Shown here: positions 7,885 through 13,213 of the stretch, one piece after another | How the letters are laid out: each line of letters starts with the position of its first letter | How positions within the stretch are numbered: position 1 is the first letter of the stretch | Assembly (NCBI RefSeq): GCF_001458335.1 | Contig: NZ_CYTO01000024.1 | Span: 693,919-757,918 of the forward strand | DNA from: Cognatishimia activa | Lineage (GTDB): Bacteria; Pseudomonadota; Alphaproteobacteria; Rhodobacterales; Rhodobacteraceae | Length of the DNA stretch: 64,000 bases | Reading direction: 5' to 3' | The notes under the pieces: generated by a model | Database searches by the model: none | Told to the model about the DNA's origin: nothing | The model's input: the letters and a program-made list of their open reading frames with translations, nothing else | Translations under genes and position numbers: made by a program

Positions 7885-8304
7885 TTAAGTTTCCACCGCG
7901 GGCAAAGCCTCCAACTCATCCTCGCTGAACAATCGTGAGCGGGTCAGGAACCGTTTCTCACGCCCATTGTCCAAGCTGAACATGCCACCGCGCCCATCCA
8001 CCGCGTCCAATATCAACTGCGTGTGCTTCCACGCTTCAAATTGAGGGCCGGAGATATAGACCTCCGCGCCGTCGATCTCTCCCAATTTCACATCGCTGCT
8101 TCCAATGTAGAAATCCCCTACCTGGTAGCACATGGGCGAAGACCCATCGCAGCAGCCACCGGATTGATGAAACAAGACATCACCGTGATCGGCGCGGATC
8201 TCATTTAACAGAGCGCGCGCGGCATCGGTCGCGCTGACACGCACGCCAGCCATTGCGCCATCAGGAAGCGCGTCATCCGTTGCGCAAACAATTTTGGTAT
8301 TCAT
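7885..8304 (-). CDS. DUF779 protein, aldehyde dehydrogenase partner
   Basis: A 139-residue DUF779 protein, a family that almost always sits beside acetaldehyde-type dehydrogenase genes and whose biochemical role is not known. A Cys-rich motif (GGCCDGSSPMC) near residues 40-50 suggests metal or redox chemistry. The start at 8304 is chosen because AGGAG lies eight bases upstream of it. The ATG at 8322 would place this site inside the gene. It follows the aldehyde dehydrogenase by 67 bases and is probably co-transcribed. Confidence 0.85.
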   Translation of the reverse strand: MNTKIVCATDDALPDGAMAGVRVSATDAARALLNEIRADHGDVLFHQSGGCCDGSSPMCYQVGDFYIGSSDVKLGEIDGAEVYISGPQFEAWKHTQLILDAVDGRGGMFSLDNGREKRFLTRSRLFSEDELEALPAVET

Positions 8305-8371
8305 CCAAGATGCTCCTCTCATCTTTGATAAGATGTCCCGGCGACCCGTGCCGCCGAGACCAGAGCGGGCT

Positions 8372-9892
8372 TTAGAAGAAGCCCAGTTTGTTTGGATTGT
8401 AGCTCACCAGCATGTTTTTGGTCTGCTGGTAGTGATCAAGCATCATCTTATGGGTCTCGCGACCAATACCTGATTGCTTATAGCCACCAAATGCGGCGTG
8501 GGCTGGGTAGAGGTGGTAGCAGTTCGTCCAAACCCGGCCCGCTTTGATGTTGCGTCCAAAGCGGTAGCAGGTGTTTGCATCCCGGCTCCACACCCCTGCC
8601 CCAAGGCCATAAAGCGTGTCATTTGCGATCTCTAGCGCCTCATCTTCATCCTTAAACGTGGTCACAGAAACGACCGGGCCAAAGATCTCTTCCTGAAAGA
8701 CCCGCATCTTGTTGTGGCCCTTCAGGATGGTTGGCTGGATGTAATTGCCGCCAGAAAGTTCGCCGCCGAAATCAGCAGCGCCGCCACCGGTCAACACTTC
8801 CGCGCCTTCCTGGCGACCGATGTCGAAGTAAGACAGGATCTTCTCTTGTTGTTCAGAGGACGCCTGCGCGCCCATCATCACACCGTCGGCACGCGGGTCA
8901 CCGGTGACAATGGCTTGGGTGCGTTCGATACAGCGAGCGATGAACTCGTCATAGATATCTTCATGGATCAGCGCGCGAGATGGGCAAGTACAGACTTCGC
9001 CTTGGTTCAGCGCGAACATCACAAAGCCTTCGATGGCCTTGTCCAAGAACGCATCGTCTTCCCGCATGACGTCTTTGTGGAAGACGTTCGGGGATTTGCC
9101 GCCAAGCTCTAGTGTCACCGGAATAAGGTTCTCGGTGGCATATTGCATGATCAGACGACCGGTGGTGGTTTCACCGGTGAACGCGATCTTGGCTATACGG
9201 TTGGATTGTGCCAGTGGTTTACCTGCTTCAAGACCAAAACCGTTCACAATATTCAGCACGCCTGCTGGCAGCGCATCCGCGATCAGTTCCGCCCAGACCA
9301 TGATGGTGGCTGGCGTTTGCTCTGCAGGCTTGATCACCACAGCGTTGCCCGCCGCAAGTGCCGGCGCAAGTTTCCAAGCGGCCATCAAAAGCGGGAAGTT
9401 CCACGGGATGATTTGCCCGACAACGCCCAGTGGTTCGTGGAAGTGATAGGCGACCGTGTCATCGTCCAACTCACCCATGGTGCCTTCTTGCGCCCGCACA
9501 CAAGATGCGAAATAGCGGAAGTGGTCTATGGCAAGCGGCAAATCCGCTGCCATTGTTTCACGGATGGCTTTACCGTTGTCCCAAGTCTCACAGGTCGCCA
9601 GAAGCTCTAGGTTGTCTTCCATAATGTCTGCGATTTTGAGCAGCGCATTGGCGCGGTCTGTCACTGACGTGCGCGCCCAGCCGTCTTTTGCCGCATGGGC
9701 CGCATCCAACGCCTTTTCGATGTCAGACGCATCAGAACGGGCGATCTGGTTGATCACTGCCCCGGTGACCGGCGTGGTGTTGTCAAAATACTGACCGTTG
9801 TTAGGCGGCACAAATTGGCCACCAATGAAGTTGTCGTATTTTGATTTAAATGGGGATGTGAATGCAGATTGCAGGTCTGTCATTTCGTTCAT
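8372..9892 (-). CDS. NAD-dependent aldehyde dehydrogenase (acetaldehyde type, ExaC/AcoD-like)
   Basis: A 506-residue ALDH that oxidises small aldehydes to acids. The catalytic Glu lies in LELGGKSP and the catalytic Cys in [10 protein letters not shown] (about residue 302), and the C-terminal oligomerisation segment is complete. The neighbours fit the acetaldehyde subtype: a DUF779 gene downstream and an AcoR-like regulator upstream. A GGAGGAG ribosome site precedes the ATG. A palindrome at 9978-9995, 86-103 bases upstream of the start, matches one in front of the regulator. The substrate is inferred from context. Confidence 0.92.
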
Positions 9893-9977
9893 GGTTTTCT
9901 CCTCCTATAACGTGAGGAAGAGTTAGCGATGATGGAGGACTGGGCTCTAGTGGGTGCAAGCGGCCCGATCTGCAACC

Positions 9978-9995
9978 TGTCTCAGTCCCGAGACA
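9978..9995. promoter_or_regulatory. Operator-like palindrome upstream of the aldehyde dehydrogenase
   Basis: TGTCTCAGTCCCGAGACA is an 18-base inverted repeat (TGTCTC/GAGACA arms) with one mismatched inner pair. Its size and arms equal those of the site at 11057-11074. Distance to the ALDH start is 86 bases. Confidence 0.6.
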
Positions 9996-10007
9996 AGCCG
10001 CGTTGAT

Positions 10008-10961
10008 TTAGTGCCCGTCGCGCGCCAATCCCAGGCGTTTCATACGGCGATATAGCGTTGCACGGCCAATGCCCAATGCTTTTGCTGCTTCAGACATATT
10101 GCCGCCAGCGCGCGTGATTGCTTTGACAAGGGCTGCCTTTTCACCTCGCTCAAATCCCTGGTGCGTGCCTTCACCCACAAAAAGGTCCGTCGCCGCCACA
10201 GGGGTCACAGTTCCCGAGAGTTTCCAGCCAAACAATTTACGTGCCGCGCGGGTTGCACCGACAATGACATCGTCGCCATTCACCGCCACCAGAGCGTTCT
10301 GTTCGTTTTTGCTTTCACCAGCAATCACAATGCGGTCCTTGGAAAATGTGCTGCGGAAGGTTTCTGCTTCGATCTGACGCGCGGTTTGTGCAACGGTCGC
10401 TGAGATGAGCTTGTTGAACCCTTCCGTCTGATCTGCACGGGCAGAGGATACATCCAGCGCGCCAACAAGTTCGCCATTCGCGCCATAGATTGGGCTGTCG
10501 ATACAGCTCATAGCCGTGTTCTTTGCCATGAAATGCTGATCGCGGTGCACAATCAGGTGGCGTTCTTCCACCAAGCAGGTGCCAATGCCATTGGTCCCTT
10601 CACGGTGCTCGCTCCAGTTCGCGCCAGCCTGCAGGCCCCAGCTTGCGAAATACGGCGCATCCGCATCGCTGCAACGCTGATCAAGGATCACACCATCGGT
10701 GTCGGTCAGAACCACGGTGCACCCGGAGCTGCCCACCAGACTGAAAAGATGGTCCAACTGAGAGGTCGCAGCGCTGCGCAAGAGCCCTGCCCGCTCTTGG
10801 CGTTCGCTTAGTTCAGACGCCGTCTCTAAGACTGGAATGTCTTGCGTTGCTGGGTCTAGCCCATGGCGTTCCATGGACCGACGCCAAGACGCTGCAATCC
10901 GGCTGCGCGCCGCGGATTGCGAAGATTCCATCGTTGCTAGAACTTTATCGCTGTGTCGCAT
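10008..10961 (-). CDS. AcoR-like GAF/Fis regulator without AAA+ domain
   Basis: A 317-residue regulator with an N-terminal GAF-type sensor (about 45-190), a short PAS-like stretch (about 225-255) and a C-terminal Fis-type helix-turn-helix (about 272-312, NMSEAAKALGIGRATLYRR). It resembles AcoR, the acetoin/ethanol regulator, but the central AAA+ sigma54-activating domain is absent, so it cannot open a sigma54 promoter by itself. It probably controls the neighbouring aldehyde dehydrogenase and itself through the two TGTCTC palindromes that lie at similar distances upstream of both genes. Confidence 0.85.
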   Translation of the reverse strand: MRHSDKVLATMESSQSAARSRIAASWRRSMERHGLDPATQDIPVLETASELSERQERAGLLRSAATSQLDHLFSLVGSSGCTVVLTDTDGVILDQRCSDADAPYFASWGLQAGANWSEHREGTNGIGTCLVEERHLIVHRDQHFMAKNTAMSCIDSPIYGANGELVGALDVSSARADQTEGFNKLISATVAQTARQIEAETFRSTFSKDRIVIAGESKNEQNALVAVNGDDVIVGATRAARKLFGWKLSGTVTPVAATDLFVGEGTHQGFERGEKAALVKAITRAGGNMSEAAKALGIGRATLYRRMKRLGLARDGH

Positions 10962-11056
10962 GGCGTTGGTTCTACCTCAGTTCCTCCCGAAAGTCCTGAG
11001 ATATTCGCATAGGAATGCAGCGGGTCGTGTCATCATGCGCTGCATCGGCAGGCATT

Positions 11057-11086
11057 TGTCTCAGAAGTGAGACAGTTTGTGAGACA
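11057..11086. promoter_or_regulatory. Operator-like palindrome plus extra half-site upstream of the regulator
   Basis: TGTCTCA-GAAG-TGAGACA (11057-11074) is a perfect 7-4-7 palindrome, followed after five bases by another TGAGACA (11080-11086). It lies 96 bases upstream of the regulator start, in the 137-bp gap to the DMT exporter gene. Confidence 0.65.
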
Positions 11087-11098
11087 ATCATTAACGGA

Positions 11099-12007
11099 TT
11101 ATGAACTTAGGGTTTTGTCCCGGCGATTGACCAAAACGATCCCGGCAATCACGCAGACCGCGCCTGCAACCAAAGACAGCGTGATGCTCTCACCCAAAAA
11201 CAGAACTGCCAAGATGCTCCCGAAAATCGGCATGAGGTGAATGAACTGACCGCCCTGCTCGGGTCCAATGACGCTGATCCCATAGGACCAAAGCAAAAAG
11301 CCAAGGGCGGAAGGCAGGATCGCGATGTATAGGATCGCCAGCACCATATCGCGGTTCATTTGCGGTGGCTCGATGCCGCGCACCAACAGAAGCGCCAGCA
11401 TCATAACAAGCGCTACGATGATGCTTGCAACCAAACTGACGGTTTGAGGCACGTTGACGGGGTTTGATCGCAGTATCAGCGTGTACCATGCCCAGATGAG
11501 GACAGCGCCCAGCATCCACACTTTGCCGGCATCAATTGCAAAGAGCGACGCGCCCGCCCCGCCACCCGACAGGATCAGAACAATCGCGCCCACAAGTGAA
11601 ACAAGCAAACCTGTAATTTGAGCCACTGTGGGCCTGAACCCATTCCAAACCATACCGCCCGCAACCGTTGCGACTGGCGCGAGCGCGGTGATGAGAAGGC
11701 AGTTTACCGCGGCGGTCAGTGACAGGGCCTCATAAGCCATGGTGTGAAAGGCGGCGATGCCTGTGAAGCCCAACAACGTAATTTTGAGCCAAGACTGAAG
11801 CAAAGCCTTTCGATGCGTAATGAGCCCGCGAAACGTGAATGGAAGCAAAACCCCAAGACTTATGATCCAACGAATGGTGTTTAATTCCAAAGGCGCAATA
11901 TCATCGCGGATGGCGCGTCCAGCAATGAAGTTGCCTGACCAAAACAGCGCTGCCAGAACAAGGGCAGTTGCCGCAGCGCGGGTTTGGTGTTGCGGTGCAA
12001 TCTTCAT
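11099..12007 (-). CDS. EamA-family (DMT) membrane transporter
   Basis: A 302-residue inner-membrane protein with about ten hydrophobic helices arranged as two EamA repeats (about 15-145 and 160-292). These drug/metabolite transporters usually export amino acids or other small metabolites; the substrate cannot be read from sequence. The stop codon is 24 bases from the extra half-site in front of the AcoR-like gene, so it may share a transcript with the genes downstream on the minus strand. Its 5' side faces the metal-importer promoter. Confidence 0.85.
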   Translation of the reverse strand: MKIAPQHQTRAAATALVLAALFWSGNFIAGRAIRDDIAPLELNTIRWIISLGVLLPFTFRGLITHRKALLQSWLKITLLGFTGIAAFHTMAYEALSLTAAVNCLLITALAPVATVAGGMVWNGFRPTVAQITGLLVSLVGAIVLILSGGGAGASLFAIDAGKVWMLGAVLIWAWYTLILRSNPVNVPQTVSLVASIIVALVMMLALLLVRGIEPPQMNRDMVLAILYIAILPSALGFLLWSYGISVIGPEQGGQFIHLMPIFGSILAVLFLGESITLSLVAGAVCVIAGIVLVNRRDKTLSS

Positions 12008-12191
12008 AAACGGACTTTCAATGTCTGAGCGCGATGGTTGAAAGTAAGTCTTTCATACGCCGCCGCCTCACTCCCCTTTAGCTATGCCATCATACTACCA
12101 TTGAGAAAAGACTTAATGCGTGTCTGCACATGTCGGGTCAAAATGCAGAAACGCGCTTTTTGGGCAATTATTCAACATGTCTCACAGTTTG

Positions 12192-12236
12192 TTGAGAATC
12201 ATTCTCAAGTTTGTTGACTTTGAGAATGGTTCTCAA
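12192..12236. promoter_or_regulatory. Two Fur-superfamily type boxes upstream of the metal ABC importer
   Basis: TTGAGAATCATTCTCAA (12192-12208) is a perfect 17-base palindrome around a central C. TTGAGAATGGTTCTCAA (12220-12236) is the same with one mismatch. Centres are 28 bases apart, 72-108 bases before the substrate-binding protein gene. They look like sites for a Fur-family repressor (Mur or Fur). The rest of 12008-12307 shows no gene. Confidence 0.65.
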
Positions 12237-12307
12237 TATCAAAGTCTCAAATAGGCCCGAAATGCGATTGAGTCGCAAAATGCATATCTGCAAAGGATCC
12301 AGAAACG

Positions 12308-13213
12308 ATGCCGGTCAAACCGAACCTCTTATCTGCAACGGCGCTTGTGGCGGCTTTGTCTGCGACGTCAGCGCTGGCAGACATTACTGTTTACGCGACG
12401 ACGGGATATCTGGGCGACGCAGTCGCAAAAATCGCGCCAAATGCGGATGTCATCACGATGGTTGGCCCCGGCGGCGACCCGCATACCTACCAACCTTCCA
12501 CGAAAGACATTCAGACGATTCAGCGTGCAGATGCCGTTGTTTGGAATGGCCTTTACCTCGAAGCGCGTATGGAATCCCTATTGAAAGGTCTTGGCGACAA
12601 AGCGCTTGCGACTGGCGAGCTTCTGCCCGCGGCGATGTTGCTGCCATGGGACGATGATTTGAGCGACCCCCATGTGTGGAACAGCCCCACCGCATGGGCT
12701 TCAATCGTCGGACATGTGGCCGACCATCTGAGCGAAATTGATCCAAAAAACGCCGACGCATATGTCGCGAACGCTAAGGCGTATATCAAGGAAATCCGCA
12801 AAGCTGATGCGGATGCCACTGAAATGCTTGCGTCCGTTCCTGCTGAAAACCGTATCCTGATCACCGGTCACGATGCGTTTGAGTACTTTGGGGACACCTA
12901 CGGGTTTGAAGTGCTGGCGACTGACTTTGTTTCAACCGAGGCAGAGATGAGCCCTGCGCAGTTGGCTGATTTGGCAAAATACATTGCCGACAATAAAATC
13001 CCGACTATTTTTCAGGATAACCAAGCCAACCCGCAGGCCATTGTCAGCTTGCAAGAAGCGGTTCAAGCCCTTGGTTGGAAAGTAGAAATCTCCGGCGACG
13101 AGCTGTTTGCAGACTCTCTTGGCGCAGAAGCAGACGTTGATGAATATCTAGAAGCGTTCACCCACAATGTCACCGCAGTCGCGGCCGCTTTGGGTCAGTC
13201 ACAAGGAAACTAA
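12308..13213 (+). CDS. Metal ABC transporter substrate-binding protein (TroA/MntC type)
   Basis: A 301-residue periplasmic cluster A-I binding protein with a signal peptide (about 1-24, ending ALA). Likely metal ligands are His in GGDPHTYQP, His in DPHVW, His in TGHDAF and Asp in FQDN, the His-His-His-Asp set of TroA. There is no His-rich loop as in ZnuA, so manganese (perhaps iron or zinc) is the likely cargo. It leads an operon with an ATPase and two permeases. Specificity is an inference from ligands and from the VIT-family gene downstream. Confidence 0.9.
   Translation: MPVKPNLLSATALVAALSATSALADITVYATTGYLGDAVAKIAPNADVITMVGPGGDPHTYQPSTKDIQTIQRADAVVWNGLYLEARMESLLKGLGDKALATGELLPAAMLLPWDDDLSDPHVWNSPTAWASIVGHVADHLSEIDPKNADAYVANAKAYIKEIRKADADATEMLASVPAENRILITGHDAFEYFGDTYGFEVLATDFVSTEAEMSPAQLADLAKYIADNKIPTIFQDNQANPQAIVSLQEAVQALGWKVEISGDELFADSLGAEADVDEYLEAFTHNVTAVAAALGQSQGN

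Follow-up and report, generated by a model that had tools for sequence, protein, structure and literature searches.

A short regulator without the AAA+ domain of sigma-54 activators is encoded beside exaC in the window (the whole stretch of DNA analysed, 64,000 nucleotides). Together with its operator and exaC it forms a defined unit, whose likeliest mode of action is that of a one-component sigma-70 activator. We propose, with a probability of roughly two in three, that this GAF-HTH protein binds the palindromes found at the locus, senses an aldehyde and activates exaC as a class-I-type sigma-70 activator. A dimer of the regulator would bind TGTCTCA-N4-TGAGACA upstream of exaC, the GAF domain would sense an aldehyde, most likely acetaldehyde, and the aldehyde-bound form would activate exaC via sigma-70 RNA polymerase in class-I fashion, with neither AAA+ domain nor sigma-54; in the small clade to which the window belongs a second operator before the regulator gene would add autoregulation. 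Binding, activation rather than repression, the contact with RNA polymerase and the ligand are all four elements that we infer. The features concerned are these.

Positions 7885 to 8322, minus strand: DUF779 protein (PF05610), downstream of exaC.
Positions 8372 to 9892, minus strand: ExaC-type acetaldehyde dehydrogenase, 506 aa (NCBIfam NF050026 AcaldDHExaC, 922.9 bits, cut-off 900).
Positions 9978 to 9995, minus strand: candidate exaC operator (palindrome), TGTCTCGGGACTGAGACA in exaC sense, kept in place at 64 of 67 AAA-less loci.
Positions 10008 to 10961, minus strand: AAA-less AcoR-like regulator, GAF domain-linker-Fis-type HTH, 317 aa (PF01590, PF02954).
Positions 11057 to 11074, minus strand: candidate regulator-side operator (palindrome), found at 7 of 73 loci.
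Positions 11080 to 11086, plus strand: extra half-site TGAGACA adjoining the regulator-side operator, from the window sequence.

The score of the dehydrogenase lies above the curated cut-off of the ExaC equivalog model, and the DUF779 gene probably shares an operon with exaC, co-transcription being suggested by spacing and strand. A DUF779 gene also follows exaC in the stretch from genome G205 (L099, reverse strand), and none was found in five exaC-carrying loci from named records (L010, L011, L013, L014 and L015).

The regulator consists of a GAF domain (PF01590) and an HTH_8 domain (PF02954) with no sigma-54 AAA+ domain, as the first-pass annotation had claimed, and this architecture extends to its relatives: both domains were present in 65/65 regulator homologues scanned and a Sigma54_activat match in 0/65. 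An AlphaFold model, built from an alignment of 65 of the 74 members gathered, has a mean pLDDT of 94, and its 317 residues make up a sensory half and an HTH and nothing else. The best PDB match, by sequence and by fold alike, is the N-terminal sensory half of Escherichia coli DhaR (4lrx), and the DhaR model matches residues 10-203 of the window regulator; full-length DhaR, however, has some 640 residues (a 643-position model) against 317. DhaR has an AAA+ domain, which the window regulator is without, and TyrR and HupR likewise retain theirs. These three proteins are listed as enhancer-binding paralogues that have lost the interaction with sigma-54 (PMC3162934).

Within the window the exaC-side palindrome, TGTCTCA-GTCC-CGAGACA, occupies 9978-9995 and the regulator-side palindrome, TGTCTCA-GAAG-TGAGACA, 11057-11074, the two being separated by ~1.08 kb. 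Both palindromes and the extra half-site lie where the first-pass annotation had placed them, and its offsets of 86 and 96 bases before the start codons of the aldehyde dehydrogenase (9892) and the regulator (10961) are correct. No other match with fewer than three mismatches to the palindrome pattern exists in the window, and in the whole of its own genome (3,358,706 bases) TGTCTCA-N4-TGAGACA occurs at zero or one mismatch at just these two sites. Allowing two mismatches adds seven sites against five for a reversed-pattern control, and there is thus no sign of a wider regulon. Elsewhere in the window, at 12179-12245, a further TGTCTCAC and several GAGAAT/ATTCTC inverted elements precede a metal ABC-transporter operon, whose binding protein is at 12308; this looks like the separate operator region of a metal regulator.

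The locus set comprised 74 unique AAA-less regulators (76 entries, with L037 and L039 duplicating L073 and L074), 67 of which have exaC within the fetched stretch and seven of which do not. Scored at no more than one mismatch, with base 5 of the half-site left free, a palindrome precedes exaC at 64 of these 67 loci, at a median distance of 122 bp (IQR 119-124), and the three remaining loci with exaC (L120, L121 and L127) have no good site and carry degenerate versions at 123-124 bp. The flanks are conserved as well: A at the third and C at the nearest base ahead of the 18-mer, and T at the third base behind it. In the clade of the window (the window, L046, L102 and L103) the operator lies 103-106 bp from exaC, that is ~18 bp closer than in other loci. 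The first-pass annotation had named lack of conservation upstream of orthologous pairs as what would refute it; on the exaC side the motif is conserved, and on the regulator side it is not general, with an operator at only seven of 73 loci (the window, L046, L102, L103, L050, L107 and L117). By eye, the extra half-site TGAGACA is absent from the other six.

In most loci the palindrome falls only a few bases beyond the regulator stop (median 11 bp, range -13 to +5919) and a 7-bp stem could form, so that it might be read not as an operator but as a transcription terminator or an RNA hairpin belonging to the regulator gene that precedes it. This is most improbable, since the element is conserved in sequence as well as in pairing, nothing terminator-like was found at the palindrome and one of its bases goes with the recognition helix of the regulator; moreover at eight loci the palindrome keeps its place before exaC whilst the regulator stop lies 111 to 5919 bp away. 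We therefore rejected the hairpin on the ground that the site follows exaC rather than the regulator, and the same tight spacing to exaC, independent of the regulator stop, supports the role of an operator.

A scan of 198 genomes of the family found 52 sites at up to one mismatch, compared with five for the reversed control. On this result, the scan of the window's own genome and the conservation at the loci, a chance palindrome was rejected. The pattern, again at up to one mismatch, is present in 42 of the 198 genomes, 25 of which also carry the regulator, and the regulator itself (E <= 1e-40) in 29; G012, G104, G111 and G118, which have the regulator and lack the pattern, carry a TGTCGCA form instead. 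Of the 18 genomes in which an exact site occurs, 17 encode the regulator, and the site directly adjoins the 3' end of the regulator gene in 16, the exceptions being G187 and G077. The exact TGTCTCA-N4-TGAGACA of G187 (L092, 3474-3491), a genome with no regulator at E <= 1e-40, is located where an unrelated ORF begins, and is possibly a chance occurrence. A close exaC (E <= 1e-200) was found in 33 of the 198 genomes, 26 of them with the regulator, and within the genus of the window three of nine genomes have the regulator.

The operator sequence also varies in step with the protein. In the first set of loci, regulators with the recognition helix RAT-x-Tyr-R were paired with TGTCTCA and those with RAT-x-His-R with TGTCGCA in one or both halves. 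This rule, drawn from the first set, then held in 33 loci fetched later, where at least one TGTCGCA half was present at 8/8 His loci and 0/25 Tyr loci (four of the latter having no site within one mismatch). Over all loci TGTCGCA occurs at 15/15 His loci, in both halves at ten and in one half at five, and at 0/49 Tyr loci, of which 48 have T in both halves and one has another change in one half. On a tree built without the recognition-helix column the trait changes once, and the match therefore counts as a single evolutionary event seen repeatedly, limited as statistically independent evidence. A TGTCGCA-N4-TGCGACA site was also seen in G261 (L098, 3118-3135), flanked on one side by an NtrC-type response regulator and on the other by an ORF resembling a histidine kinase; it was rejected as an operator of an AAA+ AcoR as the upstream gene reads, by eye, as the response regulator.

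At 39 of the 64 exaC loci with a palindrome a -35-like TGAC box lies at offset 47/48 from the operator start, any other offset being represented by at most two loci each (expected ~0.2 per offset), and 22 of these 39 have xAxxxT exactly 17 bp after TGAC where 1.1 would be expected, with three at a spacing of 16 bp and seven at 18 bp; at the seventh position after the xAxxxT box A is the commonest base (20/39). The arrangement of TGAC and xAxxxT is, as read from the sequence, a sigma-70-type layout. It places the operator centre at about -73.5 in those relatives with recognisable boxes (39/64), the window's own promoter not being placeable, and class I sigma-70 activators, which contact the alpha subunit of RNA polymerase, have operators at a fixed place upstream of the -35 box, near -61, -72 or -82. 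Neither a search for a sigma-70 consensus promoter in window positions 9880-11110 nor inspection by eye could place such boxes there, and because the window clade has both the shorter spacing and no consensus promoter, the class-I geometry is taken from the relatives.

The same geometry bears on the possibility that the regulator represses exaC until an aldehyde lifts the block, acting from the operator upstream of exaC either alone or through a DNA loop to the second operator before the regulator's own gene. Repression is common among simple HTH proteins, the protein is motor-free, and the two operators ~1.08 kb apart in the window would lend themselves to a loop. We nonetheless regard repression as rather unlikely: in the relatives ~38 bp separate the operator centre from the -35-like box downstream of it, with no promoter overlap, 66 of 73 loci are without the regulator-side operator needed for looping, and EatR, the AAA+ relative, acts as an activator (PMC5821096).

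The first-pass annotation had argued for a mode of action unlike that of a sigma-54-dependent AcoR, and this claim is strengthened by the lack of AAA+ in all 65 homologues scanned, by the exaC promoters and by the window's host genome. A -24/-12 element (up to two mismatches) was found at 0/67 AAA-less exaC promoters. Beside AAA+ AcoR-like genes with a divergent exaC, by contrast, such an element was present at 9 of 11 loci, seven of them with no more than one mismatch (the 11 being those of 28 inspected AAA+ loci in which an exaC homologue of at least 60% identity was found), and in shuffled sequences at ~1%. Several of the AAA+ promoters carry, by eye, TGTNGCA-N3-TGCNACA palindromes with a spacer one base shorter. 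In two further stretches (L075 of G238 and L082 of G366) exaC comes with several TGTCGCA palindromes and an element of the -24/-12 kind, but nothing AcoR-like is encoded in the part fetched, and its regulator is presumably encoded elsewhere.

Sigma-54 (PF04552) had no match in the window's genome (G000), whose assembly is 99.95% complete, and as far as that assembly shows the host cannot use sigma-54. Within the family PF04552 exceeded the cut-off in 26 of 63 regulator-bearing genomes and not in the other 37, which include G000 and also G595, whose sub-cut-off match was counted as absence. The presence of sigma-54 in those 26 genomes would allow the regulator to pair with an AAA+ partner protein and so to remain sigma-54-dependent, an arrangement that we consider barely credible given the missing -24/-12 elements and a window genome in which sigma-54 is undetected. 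The idea that the AAA+ domain was lost because sigma-54 had been lost finds no support, nor does loss of sigma-54 account for the distribution of the regulator: sigma-54 is missing equally often in family genomes without the regulator (19/28, with PF04552 in 9/28) as in those with it (37/63), and three genomes of other families (G245, G345 and G387) have both an AAA-less regulator and sigma-54.

An AcoR-type regulator beside an exaC-type gene, as in the window, is known from Pseudomonas aeruginosa (PA4021-PA4022, EatR and an exaC homologue). EatR is a sigma-54 enhancer-binding protein, divergent to the exaC homologue, that responds to acetaldehyde (PMC5821096), and the AcoR of Ralstonia solanacearum is predicted to regulate exaC (PMC4676750). 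Both regulators are of the AAA+ sigma-54 type and work on -24/-12 promoters, whereas in the window the AAA+ domain and the -24/-12 element are missing and the regulator, unlike the divergent EatR, stands in tandem with exaC. Another AcoR, which we take to be the Bacillus protein, an AAA+ sigma-54 activator of acetoin genes, has the same TGTCTC/GAGACA half-site as the window operator; its half-sites are in the opposite orientation to those of the window, with 2 bp between them. That site, GACAAAACGAGACAGATGTCTCATTTTGTC, with GAGACA/TGTCTC half-sites, is attributed to Peng et al. 2020 in PMC12648084, and because AcoR is so reported to bind it the half-site itself is not new. By its sensor, HTH and half-site the window regulator belongs with the AcoR/EatR group, and it lacks the AAA+ domain by which that group is defined. 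Among the matches listed in searches of open-licence literature, none described an AAA-less AcoR, or this operator beside exaC.

As in EatR, the ligand is probably acetaldehyde, an analogy with the AAA+ relative. It is possible, though we hold it the lesser prospect, that the wiring is as proposed and the ligand is a different aldehyde, or acetoin, ethanolamine or glycolaldehyde: distant paralogues (L091 and L095) lie, by eye, near molybdopterin aldehyde-oxidase-like genes, and genes for ethanol or ethanolamine use were not identified beside exaC in the stretches read. The target, on the other hand, scores above the cut-off of the acetaldehyde dehydrogenase ExaC model, and acetaldehyde is what EatR responds to (PMC5821096). 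The two paralogues are themselves AAA-less (L091 in G082, L095 in G138), the adjoining genes being of the molybdopterin aldehyde-oxidase/CO-dehydrogenase type, and in L091 the regulator is followed by an exact TGTCTCA palindrome; AAA-less aldehyde switches may thus form a broader family.

Activation of sigma-54 promoters needs an AAA+ motor. We think it fairly probable, somewhat less so than the class-I activation of exaC itself, that an enhancer-binding lineage shed this motor whilst keeping its sensor, HTH and half-site, that the target promoter changed from sigma-54 to sigma-70 with the operator in a class-I position, and that the resulting one-component aldehyde switch survives complete loss of rpoN. 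If true, a sigma-54 enhancer switch would have been converted in nature to a one-component aldehyde switch of the ordinary kind. Because the family has a defined operator, a helix/base code and AAA+ counterparts that control the same gene, the change from a motor-dependent to a motor-free activator is directly testable, and the regulator itself is a compact candidate aldehyde sensor.
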